64,000 nucleotides of DNA from Ectocarpus siliculosus. Taxonomy: Eukaryota; Sar; Phaeophyceae; Ectocarpales; Ectocarpaceae. How positions within the stretch are numbered: position 1 is the stretch's first letter; every line of letters starts with the position of its first letter. Of this stretch, positions 2,158-52,660 are shown one piece after another. The notes under the pieces were generated by a model. The model worked only from the letters and a program-made list of their open reading frames with translations. It made no database searches and was not told the origin of the DNA. A program made the translations under genes and the position numbers. The stretch is taken from the NCBI GenBank assembly GCA_000310025.1, contig FN648545.1, positions 64,763 through 128,762 on the forward strand, given 5' to 3'.

Positions 2158-3615
2158 TTATTTTTCGCGGCGAGCACACGCAGAGAAATCGCATGTGAAG
2201 TCAGCCGACAACGGCAACGCGTTTGAGTCTGCGTACAGCTCGCTACGGATCCTCTTGGAACCCGTTGCCCCCACACTAGTAGTGGCGCCAACATATCGCT
2301 TCGCTACACTCTCCGTACGCCACCCGGCAATTTTCATGATAGCGTCCATCGCCGTTCCGTCAAGCGACTGCGCTACAGAACCTCCGACGCGGAACGAGTG
2401 CATAGTGTAGCGGTGCGGCAGTCCCGCCGCTCGCAGATGCCCTTGTAGGGCAGCCGTCATCTGAACCGCCGTAAGCGGAGCGCAGCCCCGAGTTCTATCC
2501 AGCAGAACGATAGGAAACAGATGGCCTTGGGACAAATCCCAGCCAATACCCTCCGCCGCACTGATGTAGGCCGTAACATTGCTTACCGCGCAAATAGACG
2601 GGCAAGCGACGTCCGGACGCACGACCACGGCATCAACAGAGTCGCGGAGGGTCTTGCCAAACTGAAAGTTGAAAATCAGACCCTGCCCCGCGGGCAACCG
2701 CAGAACTTGCGATCCCATAGTGAAGGAGAGATCATGGCCTCGCCGCATGGAGGCGAACGCCAGCGAAAACAAAGCGACGTCCCGAGTGAGCTCAATACGT
2801 TCCGCCAAAGAGGACGCAGTCTGCGCGCGAGAGCGCATGCCCCTCAACAGATCGATGAGGACGTGCGGAAACATAGCCTCTGCCTGGTTGACAGCGACAC
2901 CCACACGTTTTTGTTCCTCCCCCGTGAAGACGAGGTAGGAGTCGACGAGAGGACTACAACAGGGGTTGCCCGAGCGCGTGGCAGGGTCCCAGCTGCTGTC
3001 TTTTCCCAACTGTTCTTGCATCGCCATCTTCAGCTTGGACACGATCCCTTTCTGCATGGACGCGGCGGCATACCGCTTAGCACATGGCGAGTTTGGAAGA
3101 CAATCGCGGCCGTGAGTCGTGCCGACACCAGGGCATGCCTTGTCGTGCACCCACTTGGTACCACTACCTTGTGTGTCCAAGAAGCAGAGATAGTCAAACA
3201 CGTCTCGGTCCGACGCCTGCTTCCAACCCCGACGTTGTTCAGTCGCCGAAAGTATGAAAGCGTCGAACCCGTCCGATACGGCGCACTTGCGCTGTTGAGC
3301 ACGACGGTTAGACGCGGCCGAAAGGACCTGATCACCCCGAGCGCGCAGCGCGTCGAAATCGATCGACACCCGAGCCGCTTGAGGGTCACGCGGTACCGGA
3401 CGCCCGCGGGCAGGCTGAACACCGCAGGACCAACAGTAGTTGTAATGTCCCACGTTTTCCGTCTGGCACGACGAACACGCGACAAACTGGACACAGCCGC
3501 CCGGAGACAGGGTGGGGACCTGTGATACGAAGCACAAGCCATCCACAAGCCAAAGGGAGGGAACTGGGCAAGATGGACGAGAGTCGCATGCTGCATTACA
3601 AGGTCCCGGTGTCAA
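2158..3615 (-). CDS. Tyrosine recombinase part of DIRS-type copy 1
   Basis: A 485-residue frame. Catalytic signature of the phage-integrase/YR family is visible: arginine near residues 291-292 (RRGHDL), HSFR at 406-409 (the HxxR box) and tyrosine at 441 (KRYVG), with the spacing usual for the family. An N-terminal cysteine cluster (CSSC and CWSC, about residues 47-64) could be a zinc ribbon. In the family this enzyme joins the circular DNA copy into the genome in place of a DDE integrase. It starts a few bases inside the RNase H-bearing frame upstream. A decayed homologue lies at about 62,060-62,800 on the plus strand. Confidence 0.9.
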   Translation of the reverse strand: MTPGPCNAACDSRPSCPVPSLWLVDGLCFVSQVPTLSPGGCVQFVACSSCQTENVGHYNYCWSCGVQPARGRPVPRDPQAARVSIDFDALRARGDQVLSAASNRRAQQRKCAVSDGFDAFILSATEQRRGWKQASDRDVFDYLCFLDTQGSGTKWVHDKACPGVGTTHGRDCLPNSPCAKRYAAASMQKGIVSKLKMAMQEQLGKDSSWDPATRSGNPCCSPLVDSYLVFTGEEQKRVGVAVNQAEAMFPHVLIDLLRGMRSRAQTASSLAERIELTRDVALFSLAFASMRRGHDLSFTMGSQVLRLPAGQGLIFNFQFGKTLRDSVDAVVVRPDVACPSICAVSNVTAYISAAEGIGWDLSQGHLFPIVLLDRTRGCAPLTAVQMTAALQGHLRAAGLPHRYTMHSFRVGGSVAQSLDGTAMDAIMKIAGWRTESVAKRYVGATTSVGATGSKRIRSELYADSNALPLSADFTCDFSACARREK

Positions 3616-5035
3616 TCAAAGAAATTGTTTTTCTTGAAGAGCGGCAGCCACCTAAGAACAAGAAGTAAAAATCAACCTCGTAAGCTACCATGGACCACCT
3701 CGGGTACTTCCACTCTTTCAGGGACCCGTCTGGGCAGGGCCACTGAAAATATCCCCCCGCATTAGGCGGGGAAATCAGCAAAGACCGCACTGCCGCCTGC
3801 TGCACTCGAGGGAACCAGTAAGACCTAGAACCCGGTACAACAATAACCGCATGCGCGTGGCACTCCGCAAGGTGTTGCACTACGTGGCCCGCCATCACCG
3901 GCGGCGGGAAACAATAACCGAATGCTCGAACCAGAGTACCTGGGCGCAACGACACGTCTTGGGCGAAAACATCTACACCCGATGAACCCTCGCAATCATA
4001 GCGCGAGAAAAACGGCAGAACAACGTCCGACTCCGGGATACGTTGAGCCGAAGCGTCGGAGGCCATGAGGTCGATAGTAAACGGCCCCATGTCCTCCCAG
4101 AGAGCCTGAAAGGCCGCCGGGTTGAGCCTGATGATGCCCTCACGCGAAGGGCGAGAGATATCATCAGCGACGACATTGGCAGCCGACGGGACCCATTTGA
4201 GGGACAGCATAAACTCATACTCGACTTGTAGCTCGAACAAACGAACAAGAAGTGCATGCGTTTCCGGGTCGCGCGCCCGCCCCCTGTTGAAAGATCCACA
4301 CACCGCGGTGTTGTCGACGTCGATGAGCACGTGCGCCCGCTGCAAGGAAGCCGGAAAGCGCGCACAGAATAGGCGCAACAAGTGGTACAACGCAAACATC
4401 TCTTTCTTGTTTATATGTTTGTGTAGCCAATCGTCGGGGAACACGCCACCTGCGCGGTATTGAGCTCCCTTAATGTTGATAGCACCACCCCAGCCAAGGG
4501 AAGACGCGTCTGATGATCCGTCGATTTTGACGATGAGGTGGCTCGCTCGCTGCCACGGCCCTTCGTGTGAAGAAGCCGTCAGCGACAGCCACTTCTGGAA
4601 CTCTTGCCGTAGATCCGCGTAAGCATCACGTGTCAGATCGATCTGACGCTGGTTGGTTTTGTCCATCGCGGAAAGGACGGCAAACATGGCATGCGTCCAA
4701 AGCGACGCCGGCCGAATCGCCACCGTCATGCTCATGCACTTACCCGCAACGCGTTGCAGCGTTCGGTAGGACACTCCCCCATCGGCCAGAGCTGTCCGCA
4801 GTAAGCCATGCAGCTTGTCCAGCTTCTCTTGCGGGATCCGGAAGTCATCGTCTCCGAATCGCAGATGATGCCGAGGTATTGTAGAGCTGTGACGGGTCGA
4901 AGCTCGCACTTCTTGAGTGACAGGAACTGTCCGCAGAAGAGCGAAGTCAGCATGGCGACGTGAGTCGCTTCCCCGGCTGCTAACCACTGATCCCGCGCCG
5001 GCCGACCATATGTGGCCAGAAAGTTGCTCCGCCAA
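3596..5035 (-). CDS. RNase H-bearing part of the polymerase of DIRS-type copy 1
   Basis: Contains an RNase H-like segment beginning KIDGSSDASSLGWGG, followed by INKKEM and a later DNTAVCGSFNRG, ending with a VADDISRPSR segment. These give the acidic residues of the RNase H active site in family order. It follows the reverse transcriptase part and precedes the recombinase, the usual DIRS order. It overlaps the RT-bearing frame. The closest relatives expected are Ngaro and DIRS polymerases; family identity is from motifs only. Confidence 0.85.
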   Translation of the reverse strand: MAEQLSGHIWSAGAGSVVSSRGSDSRRHADFALLRTVPVTQEVRASTRHSSTIPRHHLRFGDDDFRIPQEKLDKLHGLLRTALADGGVSYRTLQRVAGKCMSMTVAIRPASLWTHAMFAVLSAMDKTNQRQIDLTRDAYADLRQEFQKWLSLTASSHEGPWQRASHLIVKIDGSSDASSLGWGGAINIKGAQYRAGGVFPDDWLHKHINKKEMFALYHLLRLFCARFPASLQRAHVLIDVDNTAVCGSFNRGRARDPETHALLVRLFELQVEYEFMLSLKWVPSAANVVADDISRPSREGIIRLNPAAFQALWEDMGPFTIDLMASDASAQRIPESDVVLPFFSRYDCEGSSGVDVFAQDVSLRPGTLVRAFGYCFPPPVMAGHVVQHLAECHAHAVIVVPGSRSYWFPRVQQAAVRSLLISPPNAGGYFQWPCPDGSLKEWKYPRWSMVAYEVDFYFLFLGGCRSSRKTISLIDTGTL

Positions 5036-5892
5036 GAATCATCGAGGTATGCGAGAGAAGGGGCGCCTTTGGAACGCTGAAAGGCCGCCTTCGCTTCGCT
5101 GAGAGTATGGTAGACGTACGGGCTGAGGCTAAATCCGAACGGGAGGACGCACCAGCAGTAGTCGACGCCCTTGTAGGATAAGCCGAAGAGAGGCCATGAC
5201 GATGGCCGCAGAAGAACATGATGAAACGCTGAGGAGTCGTCGAGTGACGTCATGTAGCATCCCGACGACGCAATGCTAGCCACGCGTGCTACCGTGTCCA
5301 TGGCGAAAGGTATTTTTCGTGTGCAGCTGTTAAGCGGTCGAGCGTCATAGATAAGACGCGGTTTGGACGTCTCCACCGACAAAGCCATGATCATGCGAGG
5401 ACGCACCGGACCGGTGGAGCTCTTGACGTCAGCCCACCGGGAAATGCAACCTCGGTTGAGCAAGGATTGCATTTCCGCGTCGACGAAGTTGTCAAATTCC
5501 AGCGGCCAACGGTGGTTGGAGAAAATGCGCTGCGGGAAATGATCAATATTGTAGGGGAGAGACGGCGACTCGCCTCTGAATTTGGGAAGCAGAAGGTCAT
5601 AAAGGTCAACGCCATCCCGGATGTACGAAGTCAACGTATCTCGTAAGGGATGATCACGGAGAATGCAGTCCTCCCAGAACCCAGCATGGGCTCGCACGAA
5701 TCCTGGGACGAAACCCTTGGGATCCCACACGGGAGCCTGCCATGGCAAGCGACGTAATTCGCCTTCCATCGGGTCCCGGGTGACCTCGTCCAAAGTAGGA
5801 AACCCGCGAGAGGCCGTGGGAAAGGCGCCCACTTGCGCCCACTCGGACTCATCTGGCGGCAACAGGGGGGCCGGGGGCATGATCCACTCCAC
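4732..5892 (-). CDS. Reverse transcriptase part of DIRS-type copy 1
   Basis: A 386-residue frame with RT landmarks: the palm aspartate box LDDSSAFHHV at about 217-226, VLPFGFSLSP at about 249-258 and the catalytic YLDD at 282-285. The segment around 163-183 (RPRMIMALSVETSKPRLIYDAR) is the fingers region typical of DIRS-like RTs. The enzyme copies the element RNA into DNA. Its product lies immediately upstream of the RNase H part. Confidence 0.9.
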   Translation of the reverse strand: MEWIMPPAPLLPPDESEWAQVGAFPTASRGFPTLDEVTRDPMEGELRRLPWQAPVWDPKGFVPGFVRAHAGFWEDCILRDHPLRDTLTSYIRDGVDLYDLLLPKFRGESPSLPYNIDHFPQRIFSNHRWPLEFDNFVDAEMQSLLNRGCISRWADVKSSTGPVRPRMIMALSVETSKPRLIYDARPLNSCTRKIPFAMDTVARVASIASSGCYMTSLDDSSAFHHVLLRPSSWPLFGLSYKGVDYCWCVLPFGFSLSPYVYHTLSEAKAAFQRSKGAPSLAYLDDSWRSNFLATYGRPARDQWLAAGEATHVAMLTSLFCGQFLSLKKCELRPVTALQYLGIICDSETMTSGSRKRSWTSCMAYCGQLWPMGECPTERCNALRVSA

Positions 5893-6199
5893 ACTTTTGT
5901 GGCGGAGGTCAAGCGTCCGCAGCCAGTTCTCTGCTGCAACCTACCCGTGAGTCAAGTGTAAAGAACAGTTCGGAGTGGGGCGACACAGACAACAATTTCG
6001 AATTTCGAACCAAGCCAGGAAGTGTCTATGAGAGCATTGGGCATGCGACAAGACAAAGGGGGCGGTGGCGGGGCGTCGGGAATACAGAGATCAAGATCCC
6101 CCCCCCCTCCCCTACAATTGCTTTTTTTTTTTTTTTTGTTGAAGAGAGAACCTGGGCGCGGAGAGGTGACCGCACGGGTTCCCGTCAACATATAAAAGG

Positions 6200-8394: not shown

Positions 8395-9430
8395 CAAACA
8401 GATCAACCGACAGTCGCAAGCATAGCGGCGTATGCTAAGGAAGAGTCTACTGCGGGCAAAACATCGGCGTGTCTTGCAGGGATTTCGTCATGAGGCAACT
8501 GCTTGTGCAATGATGGCTATACAATGGCGTGTAACAGCCAACAATTGTGACAAACAAATCTACCGACGGTCGCAAGCATAGCGGCGTATGCTAAAAGCAG
8601 GGTCTGCTGCGGGCAAAACATCGGCGTGTCTCGCAGGGATTTCGTCATGAGGCAACTGCTTGTGCAATGATGGCTATACAACGGCGTGTAACAGCCAACA
8701 ATTGTGACAAACAAATCTACCGACGGTCGCAAGCATATCGGCGTATGCTATAGGCAGGGTCTGCTGCGGGCAAAACATCAGCGTGTCTCGCAGGGATTTC
8801 GTCATGAGGCAACTGCTTGTGCAATGATGGCTACACAATGGCGTGTAACAGCCAACATTTGTGACAAACAAATCTACCGACGGTCGCAAGCATAGCGGCG
8901 TATGCTATAGGCAGGGTCTGCTGCGGGCAAAACATCAGCGTGTCTCGCAGGGATTTCGTCATGAGGCAACTGCTTGTGCAATGATGGCTATACAAAGGCG
9001 TGTAACAGCCAACATTTGTGACAAACAAATCTACCGACGGTCGCAAGCATAGCGGCGTATGCTAAAAGCAGAGTCTGCTGCGGGCAAAACATCGGCGTGT
9101 CTTGCAGGGATTTCGTCATGGGGCAACTGCTTATGCAATGATGGCTACACAATGGCGTGTAACAGCCACCATTTGTAATAAACGATCTACCGACGGTCGC
9201 AAGCATTGCGGCGTATGCTTTAGGCAGAGTCTGCTGCGGGCAAAACATCGGCGTGTCTTGCAGGGATTTCGTCGTGAGGCAACTGCTTGTACAATGATGG
9301 CTACACAACGGCGTGTAACAGCCCGCAATTGTAACAAACAAATCTACCGACGGTCGCAAGCATATCGGCGTATGCTATAAGCAGGGTCTGCTGCAGGCAA
9401 AACATCGGCGTGTCTTGCATAAAATCCGAA
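8395..9430 (+). repeat. 157-bp tandem array, about seven units
   Basis: Seven occurrences of the landmark ACCGACGGTCGCAAGCAT (one slightly altered), starting near 8,408, 8,565, 8,722, 8,879, 9,036, 9,190 and 9,347. The period is 157 bp, with one 154-bp unit. Units are roughly 93-98% alike. Each carries a GCGTGTAACAGCC box that also occurs singly in neighbouring leader sequence, so the array may have expanded from the element's own leader. ORFs of 60-123 residues in it arise only because the unit lacks stops in some frames; I do not consider them genes. Not CRISPR: no unique spacers. Confidence 0.9.
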
Positions 9431-32657: not shown

Positions 32658-34826
32658 TCACCGTGTCCTCCCCGTTCCCGATCGACTCGAGGGCGCCACC
32701 GCTGCGGCCGCCGCTGCCATCGCCGCCTTTGCCGTTCGCCCGCCGCCAAGACCGTCATGAGTTCCAGGGCCAACACGGCTGCCGGTGACGTCGCTGCGGC
32801 CGCCTCTACCACCGCCGCCGTTGTCGCCGCTGCCGCCGACGGGACTCTGGCCAAAGCCGCCGCTGCCGTCTTCTGCTGCCGTCGGAGCTCTGGCCGAAGC
32901 CACCACTCCCGTCGCTGCTCCTGCTGCCGCCGGTGTGGCCGCCAGAGCTCTGGCCGATGTCGCCAGTTCCGTCGCGGCTGCCGCCTTTGCCGCCGTTGCC
33001 GCTGTCACTCCCGTTCCTGCCCCTATCGAAGGCCCTGGGACCGCCCCCCGTCTCCTCGCGCCACGCGAAGATGTCTTACCGGGATCGAAGGGGTGCGTCG
33101 GGGCTCCACTCCAGGTTTCATCTAACCCCTCACCCCCGTTCCCACCACCGCCGCTTTCCTCGCTGCTGCTGCTGCTGCTGCTGCTGCAGCTCACTTCCTC
33201 TTCAGTCTTCCCGGGATCAAAAGGGTGCGTCGGGGCTCCACTCCAGTTTTCATGCAACCCCTCCTCCCCGCCCCCGTCGCCGCCACTGTCCTCGCCGCTG
33301 TTGCTGCAGCTGCCGCTGCTGCTGCTGCTGCTCACGTCCCCCTCAGCCTTCCTGGGGTCGAAAGGGTGCGTCGGGGCTCCACTCCAGATTTCATCTAACC
33401 CCTCGTCGCCACCCTTGCGGCCGTCTGGACACCCGACGCCAACGCGGCGACCGGGGACGCCGCTGCTGCTTCTGCCGCTGCCGTTCCCCCCGTCACCGAT
33501 GTCGCTACCGCCGCCGCTGCGGCCACTGCTGCTCACATCCCCTTCAGCCTTCCCGGGGTCGAAAGGGTGCGTCGGGGCTCCACTCCAGATTTCATCCAAC
33601 CCCTCGTCCCCGCCCCCATTGCCGCTCACGTCCCCCCCAGCACATTGGCTATCAAGATCCTCTAGGACTGGCAATGGCATGGTTGTCGCACCAACCGCTT
33701 CCTCCAACTCTTCGTCACATACTTCCGTCACCGGTGCGGCCGCTGCCTCCCGTGCCGCCGTCTGGACACCCGACGCCAACGCGGCGACCGGGGACGCCGC
33801 AGCAGCTGTCGCCGCTGCCGTTACCTTCGTCACCGATGTCGACGCCGCCGCCGCTGCGGCCGTCTGGACACCCAACGCCAACGCGGCGACCGGGGACGCC
33901 GCAGCTGCTGCTGCCGCTGCTGTCCCCCCCGTCACCGATGCCGCCACCGCCGATGCTGCTGTCGGGGACGGCGCTCTGGCCGAAGCAATCCGCGCCGCCG
34001 CCGCTCCTGCCGATGCCAGCACGGCGACCGGGGACGACGCTGCTGCTCCCGCTGCTGCCGTTCCCCCCGCCGCCGCCGCCGCCGCTAACCCGCTGCGTCC
34101 GTCTGAGCGCCCAGCGCCAACGCGGCGACCGTGGACGACGCTGCTCCTGCCGCCGCTGCCGTTCCCCCCGTCATCGATACCGCCGCCGCCGCCACTGCTT
34201 CCGGTGGCGTTGCTGCCGTTGACGGGGTTCTGGCCGAAGCCGTCCGCACTTCCGCTGGCGCTCCTGCAGCTGTCGTCGTCGCCGCCGCCGGTGCTCTGAC
34301 TTCTGCCGCTGCCGTGAGGGTCGAAGGCGCCGGTGCCGCTATCGCCGCCGCCGCCGCCACCACCGGTGCCACTGCCGGTGCAGAAACGGCCCCTGTTGTA
34401 CGTGGGCACGAGGCCGACGCACGGCTGGCGGCGGTAACCCCAAACAACGTCCGTGGTGTACCCCGCGGCGCCGGAGGGGAAAATTACCTTGTAGCAGTCG
34501 TGGGAGAGGAAGTCGCCAGAGTTGAGGCACAAAAAACCGAGCGCCCTTCGGCCCGATCTTGGCGGAGACACGCGCGTAGTCGATACCCGGCATGAAGAAG
34601 GGCAGAGGATGACATAGAAGGCGCTTCCCGTGGAGCATCTCGTACGGGCACAGCATGTCGGCCTTCTTGTCAAGTCGCGGCTGTGTGTTAATGCAGGCCG
34701 ACATCCAGCTCCATGCCTCCGGCCATATGCGGTTGTAGTCGCAGGCCGGCCAAGGAAACTGAACGTCGGGGAAGAGCAAGAAAGCATCCGTGAACGCCGC
34801 CCTGCCGCCCTCCCGCACGAGCCCAA
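32658..34826 (-). other. Low-complexity linker region of the Copia-type element
   Basis: After a short Copia-like segment (RRALGFLCLNSGDFLSHDCY, just downstream of the integrase core) the frame is dominated by glycine, serine and alanine. A peptide reading GLDEIWSGAPTHPFDPGK recurs four times with small changes (DNA near 33,090, 33,214, 33,357 and 33,558), separated by serine/glycine runs. Copia elements of stramenopiles often carry an acidic or low-complexity linker between integrase and RT, but here nothing recognisable as RT follows. Long plus-strand frames over the same DNA (32,785-34,299, 32,933-34,222) are shadows. Confidence 0.6.
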
Positions 34827-35898
34827 TCCAACGCTCCACCCTGCAGTTACGCGTCTGCCCTCCGTCCGGGGATGTCAGCTCGCGAGTGATGCTGAACTCC
34901 AGAAGTAAGTCGCTCACCGACGCGTTGGCCAGCCATTCCGTCAGAAGGAACTGAAAGTCGCCGTGGGCGGCCCGCAGAGGGTGAAGCGAAATGAATACCT
35001 CGCGAAGTGCTTTCGTCACGGTGCTGGCGTGCTTGTCCGGCAGATATTTGATGATGCCGTAGTTGCTGTATTCATCGACCAAGACGAGGCAGTAGGTGTT
35101 ACCACCGGCGGATGGCGGAAGCGGGCCCATGAGGTCGGCGAAGAGGCGCTGAAGAGGTCGCGAGGCCGTGGAGGGCGTCGTCATGGAGATCGCCTTGCGG
35201 GTGGCGGCGCTGCATCCTCCGATACCGCCACCGCTGCTGTCACCACCGCCTCCACCGTTGCCCCCGTCGGTCCTCCCCTGCTGCTGAAGTGGTCCTCGGG
35301 CGAAAGCTGGAGCTGTAGTACCCGGAGCGCCATTGCAGAACTGTATAGGTTGCTGTTGTTGACGAAGTTGCTGCGGTAGAGGCTGTTGGCGACGTTGCTG
35401 GGGCACGGGGTGCTGCTGGACCGGTTGCGGTGGCATGTACGTCTGCTGCACGCACTGCTCCTGCTGCCAATGGGGGGTGTACTGGCAACGTGCTGCAACA
35501 ATAGTAATACGCTGCTGCTGCGGCTGCGCAGCCGGAGGAGGAGCAGCGGGAGGGCGTGCGTTGGTCACCAGCTGCTGCTGATGCTGGTACTGGCAGTGCC
35601 CTCTGAGGACGTGGTCGTGGCAGCTGCTCTGCTGCACACCGCTCGTCACATGTTGCTGGTATCCGCCGTACACGCGGGGTGTCTTCCCCTCTCTCTCCGA
35701 AAAAAAAAATCGTTGGGGCGGGCTACTCTCGCCACCCCCATAAAAACCAGCCGCATACCCGGTATCGCCCGCTCTCCCTCTCGCGGCTTCCTCCGCTGAA
35801 CTCCTCTCCTCTACTTCACCCACTCTCCTCCGTAACTCCGGATTCTCGGCTGCCGCTTTTTTCGCTTCTTCTTCCAACTCTCTCTCTCTTTCCGTCAT
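34339..35898 (-). CDS. Integrase-bearing part of the Copia-type element
   Basis: Frame of about 519 residues. It opens with a charged coiled-coil-like stretch (EREREL...AAENPELRRR), has a glutamine-rich middle, then an rve-type integrase core: RLFADLMGPLP with the first aspartate, AHGDFQFLLTEW with the second, and CRVERWIGLVREGG with the glutamate. A Copia-type C-terminal segment, KADMLCPYEMLHGKR, follows. Diatom and brown-algal Copia integrases have the same order. Confidence 0.8.
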   Translation of the reverse strand: MTERERELEEEAKKAAAENPELRRRVGEVEERSSAEEAARGRAGDTGYAAGFYGGGESSPPQRFFFSEREGKTPRVYGGYQQHVTSGVQQSSCHDHVLRGHCQYQHQQQLVTNARPPAAPPPAAQPQQQRITIVAARCQYTPHWQQEQCVQQTYMPPQPVQQHPVPQQRRQQPLPQQLRQQQQPIQFCNGAPGTTAPAFARGPLQQQGRTDGGNGGGGGDSSGGGIGGCSAATRKAISMTTPSTASRPLQRLFADLMGPLPPSAGGNTYCLVLVDEYSNYGIIKYLPDKHASTVTKALREVFISLHPLRAAHGDFQFLLTEWLANASVSDLLLEFSITRELTSPDGGQTRNCRVERWIGLVREGGRAAFTDAFLLFPDVQFPWPACDYNRIWPEAWSWMSACINTQPRLDKKADMLCPYEMLHGKRLLCHPLPFFMPGIDYARVSAKIGPKGARFFVPQLWRLPLPRLLQGNFPLRRRGVHHGRCLGLPPPAVRRPRAHVQQGPFLHRQWHRWWRRRRR

Positions 35899-35939
35899 CG
35901 CTGAGGCAACACCCGGCCTAGCTAGGCTCCACGATATCG

Positions 35940-36363
35940 TGTTAGTGCACTGCCGCCCTCAGCGGTCTGTGGTGTTGAGACTGGGGACTATGTTATCCCA
36001 GGAACAGCCGATGAAAAGGGACCATGTATTATATATATATCCGTCACGCAAGCCCCTCAGGCAAGCTGGTATTCAACACGCAAGCCCCTCAGGCAAGTGC
36101 CAGGAGCACATCTCCGTGTGCTCCCGGGGGGCCCGCACTTGGACCACAACCGCATACATACCCTCACACCCATACTTCCCATACGCGTATCCCCCACAGA
36201 GGATGCACAGATCGGACTCATATCCAAGTACCACAAACAGCCCCCCTACTCGATACGATGTACGATCTTGCAACCCTTCACGCGCAATCAGCCAAGCAAC
36301 ACAGAAAAGCACCCCTTTGAGAAAACTTGTTCAACAAAACTGGCTACGCATCCAACACAAACA
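35940..36363 (-). repeat. 5' LTR of the Copia-type element
   Basis: Partner of 31,165-31,588. Its outer end reads CCAACACAAACA and is followed directly by GATGG, the second copy of the target duplication. Confidence 0.85.
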
Positions 36364-41235: not shown

Positions 41236-42102
41236 TAGCTGCTGATCGGTATTGGTGACGTGGTTGGGACTTTCCGTATTCCTTATGGGCACAGAACCTG
41301 CTATACCTGCACCGCACACCTCGACGATCGGATACATAATGTTGAAAGATCCACTCTGTCTACGGTACACGGAACGAATCATACATCCGTGATCTCGGAG
41401 ATTCAAGTCAGATATTCGAACACGTGCGCGAAGTGTGTGTGTCATCGCACCTCTTAGGGATGGTGAATACAGCGGTAATCCTCGGGCACACATTGGCATG
41501 AGACGGCCGTTCTGCTCGTTCTGTGTGCCAAACGCGTTTCTCCTCGTTGACTCTCTGTTGATGGTATGGGAAACAGGTGACGGCGTAGGTCAAAGTACAT
41601 GTGAATGCGGAAGATTTGTGATGTATGTGTATCGCGGATCTGTAGATGATACATGGGGAAATTGAAGGGGGAGAGTCGGTGGTCGAGACAGAGGGGTGAT
41701 GCAATCGACATTCCGTGTGTGTGTATGGAAGCATGCTTGCAATCGTAATCCGGCGCCTGATGTTGTATTTCGCGTTTGCTGAATGCAGGTGGCGTGGCGG
41801 TCTCACGTATGAACACTGAACCGTTGCACGTGCTGGGGACGTGGGTCGAAGTTCCCATGACGGTCGTGGAAGGTTGCAGACTGGCGGAAGAAGAGGCTAT
41901 GAACGATTCGAGAGAAATCGGGTGAGAAATGTCTGCATGTGTATGCATACGCGTAGGCATAGGTGTTGTGTTGAACGTACAGAAGAGGAGTAGAAGCGTT
42001 GATGACGCGGTTGGTTCATTTCGATCCTTTTTAGTTATGGGAGGATTATATGTGGACGGGCATGTCCATTGTTGGGCTTTATTTTAATTGTGGTCGATGC
42101 GG

Positions 42103-43238
42103 CGATGGCGATGAACGGCGTTCAGGTAAATACGTTTAGACGCATGGCAGACCCGTTGTCGCCATGGTGCATTCCGGCATTGTATTACGGTGGTACTGCA
42201 TCGCGTGTAAGAGTCTTGTGTCACTCGTCATGGGTGTGTAATGTTTGTGTCACAATCGATGGACACTTATTATTCATATTATTGAACTTGTCCCATTTGC
42301 AGTGGTTCGATACCGAAAAACGTAAAAAAGGCGGTAGAACCACGTTGATATGCGCACAGCAACATATGCATACCATAGTTGTATCCCTCCGCCAGCACTC
42401 GTACGACGTGGCGGTAGATGTATATTCGACGCATGGTGTGTTTTGTCGACGTTCTCCGTCATGGCAGGGAAGTGATCGGCTCGATGGCTTCCTTCGAGGG
42501 GGAGTTGGAGGCGGCAACGACGCCATTGCATAATGTGGTAAATGCAAACGTTGCCGCAAGGCTAATCATGGACGGAATGAAGCCGACGTCGAGGGATGGT
42601 ACAGGGGACCATCCGTTACATCTTGTGGAGGATCCCGTAGTCGCGGTGATGTTCATTGCTGGTGGTGGTAATGTAAACGCGAAGAACGGAATGGGTTTGA
42701 AACCCCTTCACATGGCATCAAATGTCAGTGTCGCGTCTGTATTGGTCGCTAATGGAGCGTTCCTTTTTCCCGCACAAATACTGGACGGAGTAGTATCTAT
42801 TGGGCGAGGAACGATTCAATTGCGCGGGTATTGCTGGCACGTGGTGTGGACGCGAATGATCGAAGATATGGGGTTGGGGACACACCTTTGATGCACGCTC
42901 TCACATTGGAAATGTGTAAGGTGCTGATTGAAGGTGGTGCAGTGGTTGATGCGGTCGATGCACAGGGGAGGACAGCGTTGTTGAAAATGTGTGAAATATT
43001 GGGGAAGGCACACAAACGTGACAAAGACAGATATGTACAAACTATTGAGTATTTGGCAAGAGAGGGCGCGTCTTTCGAGATTATGTATACTGCAGGTGAT
43101 GGCGTTCAAGGGTTGTCAGGGGAACAGTTTGAGCCAGTCGTGCTGCCCATTTGGAAGAGGACCATGGTGGGAAAAATGCAGAAGGTAATCGAAAAGCAGG
43201 GTCTCAGTCACAATGGCGATGGATGGACATGTCCGTGA
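42103..43238 (+). CDS. Ankyrin-repeat protein gene, spliced, possibly frameshifted
   Basis: Plus strand. The first exon starts near 42,103 (MAMNGVQVNTFRRMADPLSP) and ends at a donor, TCGCGT|GTAAGAG (42,208). The acceptor is TTTGCAG|TGGTTCG at about 42,303. Ankyrin-type motifs follow: TPLHNVVNANVAARLIMDG (about 42,523), HPLHLVEDPVVAVMFIAGGG (about 42,610), KPLHMASNVSVASVLVANGA, then in another frame NDSIARVLLARGVDANDRR, TPLMHALTLEMCKVLIEGGA and TALLKMCEILGK. It stops at 43,236-43,238. The frame changes once near 42,430-42,480 and once near 42,770-42,800. The first could be a small intron; the second has no splice signals and looks like a one-base frameshift, so the gene may be a pseudogene or the sequence may have an error. 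Ankyrin arrays mediate protein binding. Confidence 0.65.
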
Positions 43239-43444
43239 CGGTATAATGGCGTATGTGTAAAGGGCCCAGTGGGCACAGGTGATCTAAATAAGAGCATGTC
43301 GATACGGTGCAGGTGATTGTTTCGTATTTGACGATATACGAATCGGTCTTTCGCACGAACCCGAATGATGGTAACGATGTTGTGTACGGTACAATTCGTT
43401 GTCATTAGGCGAATGATGGTAAAGATGTTGTCGGCGGTACAATA

Positions 43445-43880
43445 CGTTGTCGTTAAGAGGTTGAACATGGGAAATGCGTTCGGTGTGTCGGAGGTGGCGC
43501 AATGGTTGTCGAATTCAACGGTATCCACAACGGGATATGAAAGTGGGAGGGGTACGATACAATTGCGTAAATGGCATTGTTCCGACGACAAGAACGAGCA
43601 CGGTGGGAATCGCTTTTTTTCTTTCTTAACTGTTGTTTTTGTCGTCACCGCCGTTGACCTGAAACCGAAAGTGTTCTGGGGTCGGTCGAACACCGCGGAT
43701 GTTGATTCTGGTCGAACGTCACGGTTCCCCTATGGTGGGATGACTGGACCTCCGAAACGGGATCATTCCTGTCGAGATAATTATATTTGCTGGAAAGTCT
43801 ATGCCGAAGGGTTGTCTCCGTCGGTTAACAATACCCGGAAACTACGGTGTGCGCTTTGGGGAAGGCATGTATCATGGTGA
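43445..43880 (+). CDS. Coding-like segment downstream of the ankyrin gene
   Basis: A plus frame with protein-like stretches (SEVAQWLSNSTVSTTGYESG, GMTGPPKRDHSCRDNYICWK) separated by an intron-like T-rich piece (43,610-43,660). The phrase GRGTIQLR occurs here and also, at DNA level, near 42,805, so this may be a diverged duplicate of part of the ankyrin locus. Function unknown. Confidence 0.3.
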
Positions 43881-44144
43881 GTATGATCATGTCGGCGGGC
43901 TTGTGTACACGAAAAACGGCGACATATGAAGCCCGTGTAAGAAGGGGTGACAGGGCGCTATGAAGTCGACGTTATTATGGCCTCCTCTCCATACGTCGTA
44001 ATTTCGGAACTGGTCGACCATTGAGGTCGACTTACGTTGTAATAAAATTTGGTCACGCATGAAAAGGGAGTACCGCTATGAAGGAAATATAAAAAAAACG
44101 TTGAGGACAACATCGCAAAATTCAACAGATGACGCAATGAATGG

Positions 44145-44820
44145 GAGGAGAAAGGAACGGGGGTCTTTACCGACGCTGGTACAATAGAATGAATTTCTAA
44201 AAAAAAGGCAGAAAAAACGTGGAAAGAAACAAGAAACGATCGTAGGCGGGTCCCCCCAATTCTCCATCGGGCCTACGAAAAACGAAAAATGTACGTACCG
44301 GACACCGTCCACAGGGCCTACGAAATACATACCGGATACGACAGTAAACGAATGGATCACCTACGCCGACAATACGGACATGGGAAGGTGGTCAAACCTA
44401 GTCCGCGTCGCGTACCAGCAATTGAAAACAACGTCGTGCACGCCGTGAAGCGCTGTAAAGGGGAGGACTACGCCAAAAAGGGGTGTTCCCTTTTGAAGAA
44501 GAAATTATAGGAACTCCAGGAAATACGGCAGGTGGGGTAATTGGATCTGAAACGAACGGGAGTCATTACCGACGCTGGCATAAAAGAAATGAAAAAAAAA
44601 AAGAGAGAAAGAGCGTGAAAACAAGAAACAAACGACTGTAGCCAGGTCCCCCCAAGTCTTCAGTGGACGTACTAAAAAGGAAAAATGTACCCCACTGGAG
44701 AGTAAACGATTGAAATATCGACGACCACAGCAACCACATGGCAAGGTGCCCCTCCCTGGCAAGTGTAAGACGGGCGGCGCCAAGAAGCGGAAGACGGGCA
44801 AGAGTTAGTTTTTTTTTGTT
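44145..44820 (+). repeat. Tandem duplication of a gene 3' segment
   Basis: 44,150-44,300 and 44,553-44,700 are diverged copies about 404 bp apart (shared ACCGACGCTGG; GTCCCCCCAA). Downstream of each, the plus strand reads a similar basic peptide: SKRMDHLRRQYGHGKVVKPS at about 44,345 and SKRLKYRRPQQPHGKVPLPG at about 44,702. The second ends in a lysine/arginine-rich tail (GGAKKRKTGKS) and a stop before a T9 run. This suggests duplication of the last exon of an unknown gene with a nuclear-localisation-like tail. Confidence 0.5.
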
Positions 44821-44999
44821 TGCCCTTTAGCCTAAGCCTAGCGATATCGTCGGCATAGTCGTTGTGACTTGGAGAATTGTAGCGGCATGTTCGTGTTGTA
44901 GGCTGGCCTCCTCTAGACTCGGCGCCAATCAACGGCGCGGGAGGGGGGCGGAAGGAAACAGCGAGGGAAGAGAGCAAACGAGAAGAGGCCGACCGTGTC

Positions 45000-46770
45000 G
45001 CACGGCATGTTGCGGATTGAAGCTGACTAGTATTTTTCTTTTGTTATTTTCTCCCCCCCCCCCCCCCCCCTTGCCGTCCCGTTTAAACTGGCTTCGTGGA
45101 TATTCTGGCCCCTGGGCGAGTTGGTGTTCTCGTCTTTTATTTTATTTTTATTTTTATTAATGTTTTTTTTTACACTTTTATTTTCTTTGATTTTTCCTCA
45201 CATACATAACGTGTAGAGGGGAGCGGAGGGCTAAAAAACATTTTTGCTTCTGATTCTATTTTGCTGTTGTATTTTACCGCTCTGCTGACCCTTGGGGTCC
45301 ATTTCATTTTGGTATATATTTTCCAGGTATGTTAACCTGTGACCACGGAAATTGACCGAGTCAAGTGTTGGATTAGTACGGAGAGATTCAGACCGAAAGA
45401 GGTCCTGGATAGAGAGAACGGGATGTTTTTTTTTATGTGAAGAAAATAACAACAACAACAACAACAACAACAACATTCGTGTCCACTTGGAGGTTTTTGG
45501 TAGCAGCGTGTGTGTGATGCGCATTCGCGATGAGAGTATCACGTGAGGCTTAGGAGATCTAAGGGCTCAGTGGTTGGGCTTTCGTAGTGATGTCTTGTGC
45601 AGGTGTGTGGGGAACAGGTGCTACATCTTCGATTGTGCCCAAATCGTTGCGAGCTTGCTTTTATGCGCAACAGCAGGGGGGCGGGCTGTTTGCATATTTT
45701 TGTTTTTCTATTTGATTCTTCACCAACGGCAGAAACTTGTCCAACGGTAGAAATACGGATGTCGTGTAGGCGAGTGCGCTCTCTATCGTTTAGTGGATGT
45801 TGGATAATTTATTTGGAGACAGGATACGACGTGTCGTAGTGACTGTACTCGTGGTTGGTGCCCTCGTGCTTCCGAATGGTGATTTCGGCTGGCTGGTCGG
45901 TTGTGGGGATTGTATTTTTTCCGCTTGATTTCGGCTAACTTTCTTGTCATGTGTGGATTGTTTTTTTTCGAGGGAACGTAACATGTCGTATCGTGCGCGA
46001 TGATGATCAAGCGACGTTCAGAATGGAGATGCCTGAAGTCGTTAGTCGGCTATCGTAGCGATGTGATACTATCGTGTTTCATGCACTTATATTTGGAGGT
46101 TTGTGTTACTTGTATTTTGGGACATTGAAAGAACACCGTGTGTCATGCGATCTGCGGTTAAAGTCAGTGAGGCTCAGAATGGAGGTGCACGAGATCATTG
46201 ACTGGCTGTCGTAGATTGTGTGTTATCATTATGTTCACAAGGAAGGGCGGTTTCTTCTGTGTTGGCGTACTGCATACAAGTATCATATGCCATACCCCTT
46301 GTAGCAGTACGATCTTTTCATGTTTTGCGTTGACAAGGTGTTGAATTGCCTTAGGATAACGGCAGATGTCTGCACTATATATTGTCTGTTCCCGTTTTCT
46401 AGTGGCTTTATTTAAATCCCACGGAGCGGGGGGGGCGATGGAATGAGAATTATTGATGTAAATGCAACGACAGTTGCAAGCGTCATTTATGTGTTGGGTT
46501 TTTGGACGTTATTCTGTCTTTGCAGTCCTGGGTATTTCTGGATGTTGTATTGAAGGAAGGATTTGGTATGTGCTGATTAGTAAATGGTTGGGGCCTACGT
46601 GCTTTCCGAATAATGATTACGTGCTGACCAAGATTTTGAAAGGTACGGTGTTGTTTGAGGTTGTTGATTCTGATTTGATGACGCGTTTCCGGTATTGTCC
46701 GTTGTTCTGCAAGACGCAACGCTGATGTAATGATGAATCTTGTTGGTTATTTTTCCAAGAATATTTCTGG
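45000..46770 (+). other. T-rich stretch without a recognisable gene
   Basis: Contains a C18 run (45,053-45,070), an (AAC)n run (45,449-45,476) and diverged direct repeats around GGCTATCGTAGCGATGTG (near 46,050, with weaker matches near 45,580 and 46,200). A plus ORF at 46,462-46,725 (87 residues) is possible but unsupported. Confidence 0.5.
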
Positions 46771-46776
46771 ATTTTT

Positions 46777-47060
46777 TTACGGATTGAGTTCTCTCAAGGG
46801 GGTAAGGTAAGTAGGGTCTTGACGTATGAGGTATATCTTTAATGGTATATTTTTGTATGTTTCAAGTTGCCGTTCCTGGAACGGTACATGCATGTAATTC
46901 GCTTGGACGACAGTACCTTTATCCAAGCAGGGGGCTGTTTGTGGTACTTGGGTAAAGATACTGGTCTGAGATGGATTTCGGGGATACGCAGTTGGGGTTG
47001 TGGTTTGACCATCTGGTATTGCGAGGACCTTTTCACCCTCGCAGAGACCACAACCTAATA
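46777..47060 (+). mobile_element. Diverged LTR relic related to the Copia-type LTR
   Basis: Read on the minus strand, CAAGTACCACAAACAGCCCC is shared with the Copia-type LTRs (about 31,461 and 36,226), with GCGTATCCCC upstream of it in the same order. The rest is much diverged. Probably an old solo LTR of a related family, opposite in plus-strand orientation to the element at 31-36 kb. No internal region seen. Confidence 0.5.
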
Positions 47061-47194
47061 ACACAAGAGCAAAAACAACTTCAAGGGGCGCCTTCGGAGA
47101 TTGTCGGCAGCGAGCTAAGCATTAGCCCTAGCGCCAGCACACAAGCAAAACTTTCATCAAAGGACACACAGTCAACCCTATGTTCATATGACGT

Positions 47195-47445
47195 CACTTG
47201 CGTAAAGGTGGAGAAAGTCACGCACGTGATATGTACCGTGCACTGATCATGCACTTTAATGAAAGTGACGAAATCGTTCGTCACTTGTCTTCACTTTCGT
47301 AAAAGTGACGAAAGTCACGCACGTGATATGTACCGTGCACTGATCATGCACTTTAATGAAAGTGAAGAAATCGTTCGTCACTTGTCTTCACTTTCGTACA
47401 TGTGACGAAAGTCACGCACGTGATAGTATCGTGGACTAGTTCTGC
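47195..47445 (+). repeat. 97-bp tandem repeat with embedded palindromes
   Basis: Three copies, the last partial. The landmark CGCACGTGAT starts at 47,221, 47,318 and 47,415, a period of exactly 97 bp. Each full unit has two 16-bp palindromes, CACTTTAATGAAAGTG and CACTTTCGTAAAAGTG (6-bp stems, 4-base loops), and the box GTGCACTGATCATGCAC. Confidence 0.95.
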
Positions 47446-47755
47446 ACTCTTATGAAAGTGACGTGCAAGTCACTTTCATAAAAGTATCATTCACTTTCAC
47501 CGTGAAATGACTCTCGTAATAGTGATTTGACTGTTGTAGGAGTGTCTGTGAAAGTGAGTGTGGCTTTCACTTTCATTGTGGGAGGGAGTGACGTTTATAA
47601 CAGTCAGTATCACTTTTGTGAGAGTGACTATCACTTATATACAAGTGACGTCACTCTTATGAAAGTGTCTATCGCTATTACAAGAGTGCTCCTCACTATC
47701 ATTAGAGTGCTTCTCACCGTTGTAAGAGTGACAGTTCACTATTATAACAGTGAAT
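47445..47755 (+). repeat. Lattice of 16-bp imperfect palindromes with a 21-bp period
   Basis: Consecutive elements of the form CACT-N8-AGTG start at 47,445, 47,471, 47,492, about 47,509, 47,529, then 47,568, 47,590, 47,611, 47,632, 47,652, 47,673, 47,694, 47,715 and 47,737. The last eight steps are 22, 21, 21, 20, 21, 21, 21 and 22 bp. Cores differ (for example TTTGTGAG, TATATACA, ATTATAAC) while the CACT/AGTG arms are kept, so selection or copying acts on the arms. No convincing gene overlaps. Confidence 0.9.
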
Positions 47756-48374
47756 CCATTTTCACGATAATGTGGGATGCCCGGGGGGGAACAAGTCAAC
47801 AAATCCCTCCGCGCAGGGAAATCTTGCCTTCCTCACTTATGTACCGTAGAATATCCACTGTTGTTTGAGGTATACACATGTATGTATGCATTCCGTATCC
47901 GTTCCGTATATTGTTGCTGTTCCTTGCATGCACCATGCATTGGAAACGCCATGCCCGTTAGTCGGCGCTCTCTTTTATGTGTGACGACGTGATATATTCT
48001 TAGTGTACTGAAGCCGCTATGCACACTAGACTACATCAAGTACGTAAATACGTCCATCATCGCCGCGCTGCAAGTACGATGCAAAAGTAGACGGAGCGCA
48101 AGCAGTAAGGTTGTCGCCGACAGGTTAAACCCGTTGGAACCTCCAGTTGCGGTCATGAGCGTTCGGTTGTGTCTCGCCACACGAAACAAGTAGTTCATGA
48201 CGGATTGTAGCCAGCCGCAGCCAAGGCATGGCTCCCTGCTGTCCCCGATTTTTGGTGTCTCGTATATTCCAGGAACCCTCTTTCGATACGCCGATTTCGT
48301 TACCCCCCGGGACACGCGGGGAATACCGTGGAAATCGTGTGGATCAAATTCCAGTGCCGTTCTGCTCCGCGTGT

Positions 48375-51300
48375 TTACTCCTCTTCGTCGACCGGCGCCC
48401 GTTGTTGAAATCCGTTTATCCTCTTGGTCTGACGAGACTTTCCTTGCTGCCCCTCCGGGTTTCCGGGTTCCTCTTTGGCCCCCGATCGATGCTGAAGAGG
48501 TTGCCTTCTACCGTCCTTTTTCGGCCTCCCCTTCTTGGGCGCCTCTCCAGGATTTTGGACGCCTGTGCCTCCCGCGGACGAGTTGAGAAGATACCGCAGA
48601 AAGTCCCCAACCTTGTCCTGGACGGACAGCGCTTGATCCAGGGGCACGGACCTCATTATATCTCCTACAAGCTCCTTGCTCTTCGCCATCAGATGGGCGT
48701 AGACTCGACGCTTGTCGGAAGCGCTTCTATCCTGCGCGGCGCGCCCCGGTTCAGCAGGATGTATGCCATCCACCGCCTCATCGCATGTCGGTCCCCAGTA
48801 GTTCTTGTCGCTGCGTTCGTCATGGCCGTCCCACCCTACGCCGTGGCCTGACGACGACAGCACCGATGAGATGCTCCACGGCGAATCTTTGCCATCTTCT
48901 CTTCGACGCCAACGGTTGTGGACACATGCGCCGTTGAAGGTATGGGTGAAGGACATCTCGTCGCTTTCGCCAGTTCTCCCCATGAGGTTGACAAGCACCG
49001 CAATAGCTGTAAACAGGAACATAGGTGGAAGGTGTCAGGTCCGAACACCACGAGGTGGCCAGGTCTGTTCGCCGTCCACTTGTATCGAACGGCCACGACC
49101 AGTTGGATAGGTACATCCGCGATTAAATCCCAAGAAGGCTGACAGCGACGTACGCGCCCACATAGTGTTGTCCACCGCAGCTTCGCCGGCTAACTGGTCT
49201 CCCTCGAGATCGGTATCAGGTGGTGCGACCTGAAGAATGTTGAGCTTGAGGCGCAATGAGCGAATCTTGGCGAGGTTGTGCTCATGGAGAGGCAGCGGGT
49301 CCCCATTCTCGTCCTCACGACCTGAATTCACCAACTCGGCGTCATACGACTGGGCTTCGGCAACCTTCGCTCTGACCTCCTGCGACAGAATGAGGTTCGA
49401 CAGTACGAAGATGTGTTGGATGGGGTTTCAGTTCGACTGGATGGTGTCTGCTTGTGCTTAAGCTTGGTAAACCACGGACACACCATCGCACGAATTCAAC
49501 AGCGGCACTTGCTGGCAGTACTGGCTAGCACCACAGGCTAGGAGCTCCTGCTTCACGGGTCTGAAGAAATTCTCCACGTGGATATCCCGGAAGGCCACGC
49601 CAGCGGCAAGGGGGGGTGTCGCTAACCTGCATGCATGGCATGAAACGCAGTCTTACATAATGTTTAAAGGAGGGAGAAATCCGCACACGATGTCGATCCG
49701 CCACCAGTGTGTGTAGCTGTAGCTGCAGGTAGAGACAAATTCGCGTGTTGTGGAGCACATCGGAATACCGCATAAATCGAAGCACGCGGATACCACCTGC
49801 TGCCATGGGTGACGAAAACAACAGACAAACTCACCTCGCAGTCGCTATGGCAATCATCTTGCTGAGACGTTGCAGGCGATCCCAAAGAGCGCACAGAGAT
49901 AGCTTCTTGCCGACGCCAGAGTGTTTCGCCACCCCGAATAATCCTTCCGTGCGCTGAGTAGCAACCATGCCTAGCATGAGGACAGTGGGCCGGCAGCAGA
50001 ACGCCCACTTGGTCTTGTTCCTACGACGGTTTACGACGCGGGTACCAGAGTGAATTAGTGAATATCGAGTGTAAAGACGCGGCATCGATGGCTCAAGCCA
50101 GGGCATAATGACAGCATTACGGCGCTTCCTCGAAATGTACGGAGGGAAGTTACTCACTTGATCAAGTCCGCTATGTATCCTTCGCACTTCTTGGCGGCCA
50201 GAAGTTGCTCCAACCGGGCCACTTGGTCGCAAACACCTGCCACCGGAGACAGTGGTAGACACAAGACACGCCAAAGGTTATGTTTCCGCTCGTTGTGGCG
50301 GGGCGAACGGGTGGGATAGACCAATGCATTCTCGCGGGGCCGTCATGTGGCGGCAACCTACGAGTGAATGCCATCGTACCTCCGGGGTAGCTGCATACGC
50401 TGCGTTTCTGAAGCAACGCATCATGTCGGTCTTGTCGTCATTGTTAGCAAATGATGACGAGCAGTTCTTGAGGACGTTCTTGAAGACATGCCACAAGCAG
50501 TGCAAATGCAGCGTCCCTGGCCAGCAAGAGGCTATTGCAGCCGTCATTGATCAGCGTCGCTCAAGATCACCTGTGGAAAAGGGAAAAAGTGATATGTCAA
50601 CGGATGGGATAGGCCATGGACGGCGCGGTTATGTCGACAGCCACTAGATGCGTCTGCAGTACATGCCTCAACAAATATAGACGTCTATTTGTTCCTATCG
50701 CGAAGCGACTTTTTATTGTACATCATCCTGACCTCGTTCTACATGGACGCCATGAATGAGTGTTGTGAACATCGTAAGAGGGTCACCTTCGGCTTCCGCC
50801 CACCGGTAGCGGCCTCATATCTGTTCAGGATCCATTCGAACGTCTCCGTACACTCAGACCGCAGAAAGCCCTGCCCAAAATGCAGCTGCGATTCTCGTCG
50901 CCGACGCCCACGACGAACAGAAGAGGGCACCGGTACCTACAGACAAACAATCAGCCCGAGTTACATGACGCATTGATACTTGTCCTTGCAGCACCAAATA
51001 CCCCCACCATAAACGACGAGCGTGGATTTAAAAAGGGCAACCATGAGCAGCTTAGCGTATCGAACGGTCCCACATTTGCTGTGGAGACATGCAACCTGTC
51101 GAAGGGGGTATTGTGTGCACCTGTTCGTGAACACCGTTGTATCCAGCTGTATGCAGCCCCCAAATCTTGCAATATGTTCTTGCTGTTGGACGATAGCCCA
51201 AAACACATCCACCACTCGTCCCTGGGCATCCAGCGTGTGATCGCAGTACATGCCAGGTTCGCTTATCAGAGTCGCGAGGAAGTTGGTTGCGTCCTCGGGT

Positions 51301-52660
51301 TTCGCGTTCAACCCGTCGTTTACCTTCTGCATTTCGTTGTACACCTTTAGCACGAAAACGGCGTTACGAAACGAAATGCAAGGGAACGAGAGGGTAAATT
51401 CCTCCCGCCACCTAACACAATGACGGGGAAGAACTGCAAGAAGACTTGCCTGCCTCAACGGTGCCATTTTATGAGAAACGCCGAGAATGCAACAACTCCG
51501 CTATTTCACTGCTATTTCCCGCGAATTGACGTCTATACTGAACGTTGTTGGTCGTTGGACTCCCAACTGTAGCCACCCACTTTTCGTCTTCCGTGTTTGC
51601 ACAAGAGGAGACCGTCCTGGTCCAGTTCCAGCAGTTTGATATTTTGCTGTGCTGATACGCCCCCCACAGTCCATGTCCGGACATCGTCTATCCTCTCGTC
51701 GACAGTATTTGGCGACAGGATGTGCTTGGCTGCACTTGACACCGTTCCCCGTGGGTCGTGGTTGTGTTGGCAGCGAGACTGGAGGGGTCGACAAAAGGAC
51801 GGAGCCACTCAGTTCCAGACTCAGTACTACCAGATGTCTCAAGCATGTCAGAATCAGTACGATAAGATGTCCCAAGCATGTAGACTGCACGTACATCTCG
51901 AGTAGTTCAAAACAACAGCACGAGTAGATGCCGATACTATGTGCGTGGATGTTGGTCAAGATGCCGTAATAGAAGGAAGGCCCAAACTCGCAGGGGATAT
52001 GGATGGGTTACTCCCCCGCAGAGGCCAATTGATGGTGATCTTAAAAGGGCACCCCACCTATTCCGTGCCAGAGTAAAAAGCGGAGACGGCGGGGGGTAAA
52101 GAGTGAAACGGTCATCAACCCCAAGGCAAATGCACAACCCAGAACACGATGCGATACCAGTACTTCGCACCAGGTGCGCGGTCAGCAGGTTTTACGTCGT
52201 CGAGCATGTCGAGCAACTGGAGGTCAGGCTGCCATTATGATAGTTCAACACAGCTCACCTTCTGCGACGTTCTCTTCCTGGGGTTGGCCTCTTGTTTTGT
52301 CGGATCTTTCTTGCGTACGCTTCCCGAATGCGCACAACTGACTTCACAGAGATTGTGTCGCGATTTGTCGGCCGTCTGCATCAAGAGACAAACAAAACGA
52401 GCGCCCTTTATTTGCTACGGGCCGGTGCGAGGTTATCGTGCGGATACATCTATGTTGGGCACGAAGGGAGACCAGAAATACCAATGCGCAAGGGTGCACA
52501 GAGCTCTCACCTATTTTTTTCGGTTAATACAGAGAGTTTGGTGCCCCTCAGCCCCGAGGTCTTCGAGTAGTGTGTCGAACACAGCATCCCAAGTCTCTTG
52601 AGGAGAACCGAGCACGTCAAAGGAACGGCCCACTTTGGCAATTCTTCCCGCTTCCCCCCG
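48375..52660 (-). CDS. MULE (Mutator-like) transposase gene, spliced and decayed
   Basis: Minus strand, many exons. N-terminal pieces at about 52,640-52,507 (SFDVLGSPQETWDAVFDTLL) and about 52,385-52,262 precede an exon from 51,778 with the zinc-type ending RCQHNHDP and SAAKHILSPNTVDERIDDVR. The catalytic exon (about 51,430-50,990) has DHTLDAQGRVVDVFWAIVQQ and FGGCIQLDTTVFTNR, the MULE box with the first active-site aspartate. Next come FLRSECTETFEWIL (about 50,850), AAIASCWPGTLHLHCLWHVF (about 50,540), VATQRTEGLFGVAKHSGVGK (about 49,930), a CSC...C.H SWIM-like segment near 49,040, and a C-terminus with KKGRPKKDGR before a stop at 48,375. Donors such as CCGGAG|GTACGA and CTGCGAG|GTGAGTT support splicing. 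A frame break lies between VILSDADQ and MTAAIAS near 50,550, and the SWIM segment is split over frames, so it is probably a dead copy or a FAR1-like relic. Confidence 0.75.

Follow-up and report, generated by a model that had tools for sequence, protein, structure and literature searches.

Palindromic subterminal arrays at the ends of a giant class II transposon family in the brown alga Ectocarpus siliculosus

Introduction

Palindromic arrays in the subterminal regions of large transposons are already known as a kind. The closest described case is soybean Tgmt*, a 20.5-kb CACTA element whose palindrome-forming subterminal motifs are unequally divided, with 12 on the right and 2 on the left (PMC2613891). 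Subterminal motifs are known to be sites of DNA-binding proteins in En/Spm, where the motif is 12 bp long and includes a TCTTA part, and the same role has been proposed for those of Tgmt* (PMC2613891). In Hermes, a member of the hAT superfamily, two zinc-finger BED domains cooperate in binding a quasi-palindromic subterminal pair close to the tip of the left end (PMC10368747). In Ectocarpus itself, a survey described giant KDZ, EnSpm and Sola-1 elements. Its KDZ elements form 8 families of up to 30.3 kb, and most of the giant families contain nested insertions, often with a broken transposase gene; neither "subterminal" nor "palindrom" occurs in the main text (PMC12477816).

Here we analyze a 64,000-nt stretch of E. 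siliculosus DNA (hereafter, the window; contig FN648545.1, positions 64,763 to 128,762, with coordinates below counted from its first letter). A preliminary description of this stretch had drawn attention to a row of imperfect palindromes, CACT-N8-AGTG, between 47445 and 47755. We estimate a probability of roughly 0.75 that this row forms the right-end subterminal array in a giant class II transposon family, and that its palindromes serve as sites for a dimeric protein that pairs the transposon ends.

How does this family compare with the described systems? It shares with CACTA/En-Spm elements and Tgmt* a very large size, short imperfect terminal repeats and unequal palindromic arrays at the two ends, but Tgmt* makes a 3-bp target-site duplication and has CACTA tips, whereas here the duplication is 8 bp and the tip is CGGGCTCCCAC (PMC2613891). 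Hermes resembles it in the 8-bp duplications, in sites fixed relative to the tip and in unequal ends; it differs in that its sites are short AAG(T/C) motifs, mostly unpaired as palindromes and, in the available part of the account, without a lattice (PMC10368747). Galileo and Foldback elements likewise have several transposase binding sites in long, internally repeated ends, but those ends are long true inverted repeats with direct tandem repeats and few sites, and no palindrome lattice appears in the available part of their description (PMC3688188). The giant KDZ elements of Ectocarpus belong to a superfamily in which Zisupton and Dileera make 8-bp duplications (PMC12730594), and nested elements are present here too; the difference is that no KDZ protein was recognized in the present family. 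In view of the 20.5-kb CACTA element with its subterminal palindromic arrays (PMC2613891), the preliminary description went too far in stating that it knew of no such element. No phased palindrome lattice was found among the titles and abstract openings searched, which included few subscription journals. Within that literature, a lattice of 16-bp palindromes phased at two helical turns, on an element that makes 8-bp duplications, may be new.

The transposon family and its target-site duplications

We searched a genome assembly of 189.5 Mb in 492 contigs. A type III polyketide synthase exon encoded there agrees at 51 of 51 residues with PDB 4b0n, a protein of E. siliculosus. The interval 47400–47800 of the window gave at least 136 matching pieces, and most of it was matched at no fewer than 26 other places with 83–94% identity. 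The right end of these copies is marked by a terminal motif consisting of GAATCCATTTACACGATAATGTGGGA and about five further bases. Allowing up to three mismatches, it occurs at 28 places genome-wide (29 rows, less one that is a left end), and the reversed control at none. Under the same threshold, a second, related motif marks the left end at 41 places (42 rows, less one that is a right end), again with no match for the reversed control. In paired copies, the left motif faces the right motif, and the two ends lie 0.7–25.6 kb apart. The terminal inverted repeats are 31 bp long and imperfect (left, CGGGCTCCCACACAATCTTGTATATGGATTC; right, reversed, GGGGTTCCCACATTATCGTGTAAATGGATTC), with elements mostly starting with CGGGCTCCCACAC and finishing with GTGGGAACCCC or GTGGGAAGCCC.

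Duplications of the target site were assessed in 21 pairs; since the window copy lacks its left end, these statistics rest on other copies. An 8-bp duplication is perfect in 16 of the 21 pairs, matches at 7 of 8 positions in two and is absent in three. For 15 of them the flanks were compared by a script, which found 13 perfect 8-bp duplications directly outside the terminal repeats and none in the remaining two (C25:3797784 and C59). The other six were compared by eye: C5, C6 and C16:6880096 have perfect duplications, C9:5736314 and C23 agree at 7 of 8 positions, and C12 has none. Mismatched left and right ends served as a control, and among 210 such combinations none agreed at 8 bp and one agreed at 7. 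With terminal inverted repeats and a duplication of fixed length both present, the family is a class II, cut-and-paste DNA transposon. Moreover, the C6, C10 and C16 copies are 99–100% identical over 6.8 kb of their interior, yet their duplications differ (CACTGTGG, GTTTGTCT and TACGAGTG), which indicates recent, separate moves.

The C6 copy, about 15 kb long, shows how the two ends are built. On the left, 13 sites lie within 400 bp, spaced 20 to 62 bp apart, and many of them have GACT or AGTC arms. On the right there are 12 sites, eight of which form a lattice with steps of 20–22 bp; a degenerate match inside the terminal repeat is not counted. At the left and right end alike, the outermost palindrome abuts a terminal 26-mer, at an equal distance from the tip. 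Repeated short sites are thus present inside both tips, and they constitute a subterminal repeat array.

The window copy

The window contains the right-hand 3.0 kb of such an element on the plus strand, at about 44749..47782, identified by its match to the C6 copy, to which it is 91–97% identical in blocks from 44749 to 47777. The left part has been lost. Among 64 matching rows, 20 start exactly at 44749, one starts at 44750 and the others start further right; a search of the window's contig at up to three mismatches revealed no left terminal motif. The right terminal inverted repeat, ending in ...GTGGGATGCCC, occupies 47752..47782 on the plus strand, and the outermost palindrome adjoins it just as it does at the left end of the C6 copy. 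From its sequence, the window copy looks like a left-truncated, dead remnant. Adjoining the truncation point, and outside the transposon, is a different repeat (41570..44748) that is 89% identical to C115:213-3369. This repeat includes a plus-strand frame at 42753–43235 with ankyrin repeats (PF12796, E 2.6e-6).

The array of the window copy

Between 47440 and 47760, the window holds 11 CACT...AGTG sites with at most one arm mismatch, whereas 2000 dinucleotide shuffles gave 0.36 on average and never more than 4. Strong over-representation of the motif at this place is thereby confirmed. Counted over the entire window, the motif shows no significant enrichment (29 sites, with 25.8 expected). An array is therefore present where it had been reported, with 11 palindromes at this mismatch threshold between 47445 and 47752 rather than about 14. 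Their steps are 26, 38, 20 and 82 bp, followed by 21, 20, 21, 21, 21 and 22 bp. The last six steps belong to an outer lattice of seven 16-bp palindromes on the plus strand (47611..47752), which start at 47611, 47632, 47652, 47673, 47694, 47715 and 47737. The regular 20–22 bp spacing that had been described holds for these seven sites and breaks down further in, where four plus-strand palindromes at 47445, 47471, 47509 and 47529 (47445..47544) are irregularly spaced; under a stricter rule for arms and symmetry, the first two of these are retained and the last two are dropped.

The array also turned out to be longer than the described extent of 47445–47755. Its inner part consists of 97-bp tandem repeats (2.8 copies; 47184..47463, plus strand), which carry plus-strand palindromes at 47252, 47292 and 47349 and weaker ones at 47195 and 47389. 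The row of palindromes as a whole spans 47195–47752, and the transposon terminus at about 47782 closes the array.

The proposed siting on a single face of the DNA agrees with the phasing in the outer part of the row. The seven outer sites, which were picked for their regularity, have a helical-phase coherence of 0.96 at 10.5 bp (p 0.001), while for the 14 right sites at 47252–47752 the coherence is 0.51 and not significant (p 0.087 for the best period). In the C6 copy, the 12 right sites have a coherence of 0.69, with a best period of 10.55 bp (p 0.014); at the left end, the coherence is 0.11 at 10.5 bp, and the best period is 10.1 bp (p 0.01).

The palindromic site

At both element ends the palindrome takes the form [C/G]ACT-N-TTATAA-N-AGT[G/C]. 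The logo derived from 346 sites at 29 ends, among them one left end and part of a second, is [C/g]ACTNTTRTAANAGT[G/c], that is, [C/g]ACT N TTRTAA N AGT[G/c], where the conservation of the arms is partly built in by a site finder that requires arm and symmetry matches, and that of the core much less so. Over the same sites, positions 6–11 are mostly TTATAA or a near variant, and the whole 16-mer tends to be a palindrome; the core is not the unconstrained N8 of the preliminary description. We take the half site CACTCTTA to resemble the 12-bp En/Spm motif. The pattern SACTNTTATAANAGTS occurs at 165 places in the genome, compared with 3 for the pattern read backwards, and each of the first 50 of the 165 matches is no more than 404 bp away from a mapped terminus. 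Among the matches listed, the motif is a property of the ends of this transposon family. Its position is fixed as well: from the start of the last palindrome to the end of the terminal motif the distance is 41 bp, in 28 of 28 right ends.

When the seven outer units of the window are compared with one another, identity is 0.93 in the arms, 0.62 in the cores and 0.29 in the spacers; for the eight outer units of the C6 copy, the corresponding values are 0.91, 0.85 and 0.36. Since the outer units agree in their arms and partly in their cores, but not in their spacers, none of them is a fresh duplicate of another: the spacers have drifted, while the sites and their spacing have persisted.

These comparisons bear on the idea that the array is a functionless tandem-repeat expansion carried along with the transposon. 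The number of complete units of about 21 bp does vary among copies at the outer end (extra in L008, L016 and L031, fewer in L024 and L025), and the inner 97-bp unit is tandemly repeated. Across 27 sequences, minor letters account for 4.1–4.5% in the arms and 5.1–5.5% in the cores, compared with 4.0% in the inner and 8.2% in the outer spacers and 6.2% in the neighboring interior, so that the arms are not clearly better conserved across copies than other parts, and weakly at best. On the other hand, adjacent units resemble one another in arms and partly in cores but not in spacers, which makes a microsatellite-like expansion unlikely as the whole story. Furthermore, the palindrome recurs at the left end with a different spacing and different arms (the GACT/AGTC variants), and the logo is tight over all 346 sites. 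We consider a functionless expansion improbable.

Candidate function of the array

The presence of sites at both ends, beside the terminal repeats, points to recognition at the level of DNA. Under the reading that we favor, in which the palindromes are protein sites of the transposon ends, each 16-bp palindrome would comprise two half sites for a dimer, the candidates being the transposase or an accessory protein encoded by the element. The outer sites, two helical turns apart, would recruit several dimers to a single face of the DNA, and this loading would mark and pair the transposon ends. Of the three roles suggested in the preliminary description, a cooperative array for a dimeric protein appears to fit the sequence best, although the transposon-end setting had been missed.

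An array of this kind might also permit movement in trans by copies that have internal deletions or lack a transposase. Three short copies of 0.66–0.94 kb (C23, C9:5736314 and C5) still have palindromes, although much of the right array is missing from C23. Their duplications, perfect in C5 and near-perfect in the other two, agree with movement in trans.

A more specific version of the mechanism, which we regard as possible but rather doubtful, treats the lattice as a platform on which a dimeric protein polymerizes along one DNA face with two-turn spacing. A short filament would form at the right end and another, less regular, at the left, and the number of units would set both the pairing of ends in giant elements (15–25 kb) and the advantage in trans. 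If this were true, transposase-less copies would gain an advantage in trans from the number of their 21-bp units.

Alternatively, the array could control transcription, as an operator or promoter for the element's own gene, and contribute little to transposition itself. The En/Spm protein TNPA binds subterminal repeats and both regulates and blocks transcription, which means that both roles can coexist (PMC2613891). Against a promoter alone are the sites at both ends, adjoining both tips, and their persistence in the three short copies, even with the right array of C23 much reduced. In our judgment this alternative is unlikely, to about the same degree as a functionless expansion.

Hairpins were considered as well, either in a folded RNA that is a source of small RNAs or a target of silencing, or as extruded DNA cruciforms. 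The strand folds well: for 47440–47784, the RNA fold has −131 kcal/mol compared with a shuffle mean of −87 (z −8.8), and small RNAs have been associated with intact Ectocarpus transposons (PMC12477816). However, any palindrome array folds well. Among 27 sites (14 from the window and 13 from the C6 left end), palindrome positions 5 and 12 are complementary in 10, with a shuffle mean of 7.9 (p 0.24), and positions 1 and 16 in 13 (p 0.84), neither of which is significant compensation. The lack of significant compensation between positions 5 and 12 favors two protein half sites over a stem, and the sites adjoin terminal repeats. We consider a hairpin function, including the string of transcribed hairpins envisaged in the preliminary description, very improbable. 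A replication or centromere-like element, the remaining earlier suggestion, is rejected, since the array is dispersed at transposon ends with terminal inverted repeats and target-site duplications.

The analysis provides mapped ends, duplications and probable cis-sites for a recently active giant transposon family in a brown alga, together with copies whose arrays vary naturally in their number of complete units. It thereby makes testable the question of how very large transposons pair their ends and how transposase-less copies stay mobile.

Superfamily and transposase

Our first guess for the superfamily, and a fairly probable one, is KDZ (Kyakuja-Dileera-Zisupton), which is the likeliest because of the 8-bp duplication, the size and the host. 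A duplication of 8 bp agrees with both hAT and KDZ (Zisupton, Dileera), and some MULEs and P elements also make duplications of this length. Within KDZ, 8-bp duplications are described for Zisupton and Dileera and 7-bp duplications for Kyakuja (PMC12730594). Membership of CACTA/EnSpm, for which the rule is a duplication of 2–5 bp and a CA...TG or CACTA-type tip (PMC12730594), is ruled out by the 8-bp duplication and the CGGGC tip. This transposon family may already be within the Ectocarpus library of PMC12477816.

When the 15-kb C6 copy was scanned against Pfam in six frames, no match passed a cut-off; the two that were obtained have E-values of 0.08 and 0.13. The KDZ profile PF18758 had no matches across the genome, but it also had none in 14 controls. 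None of the 20 genome matches to the hAT dimerization-domain profile PF05699 and none of the 45 to the MULE profile PF10551 falls in a paired copy, as judged by comparing coordinates by eye. The absence of a hAT transposase inside the element is compatible with movement in trans. Substitutions among the C6, C151 and C241 copies were examined as a test for coding exons, but the 197 and 205 changes were too few for a clear pattern.

Several other transposon-related sequences were found in or near copies of the family. A broken MULE/FAR1-like transposase remnant lies on the minus strand of the window at 50200–51500, immediately beyond the right end of the transposon; two pieces of it were scanned, of which one has a sub-cut-off match to PF10551 (E 0.0028) and the other no match, and the rest of the assignment was made by eye. 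Located at 50.2–51.5 kb, outside the right terminus, this remnant was rejected as the transposase of the element. The 25.6-kb C9 copy contains a nested, unrelated element (L066:1017-9089) with identical 99-bp inverted ends at a distance of 7.9 kb from each other; its MULE-like matches fall below the cut-off. An extra stretch in L088 has a frame that by eye resembles a tyrosine recombinase; its matches are below the cut-off, the best (E 0.0016) being to a TFIIA model. L067 and L090 have in common a nested repeat with 187-bp direct ends (BLAST, by eye), and L090 also has a helicase-like frame, recognized by eye.

Other elements in the window

A retroelement on the minus strand at 2161–5940 encodes a reverse transcriptase (PF00078, E 1.1e-8) and has a tyrosine-recombinase match below the cut-off (PF00589, E 0.047); it is perhaps DIRS/Ngaro-like. 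Another minus-strand frame, at 34342–35958, has an integrase-core match below the cut-off (PF00665, E 7.6e-5) and is probably an LTR retroelement. In addition, a 157-bp unit is repeated in tandem at 8395–9419 (6.5 copies, 93% matches).
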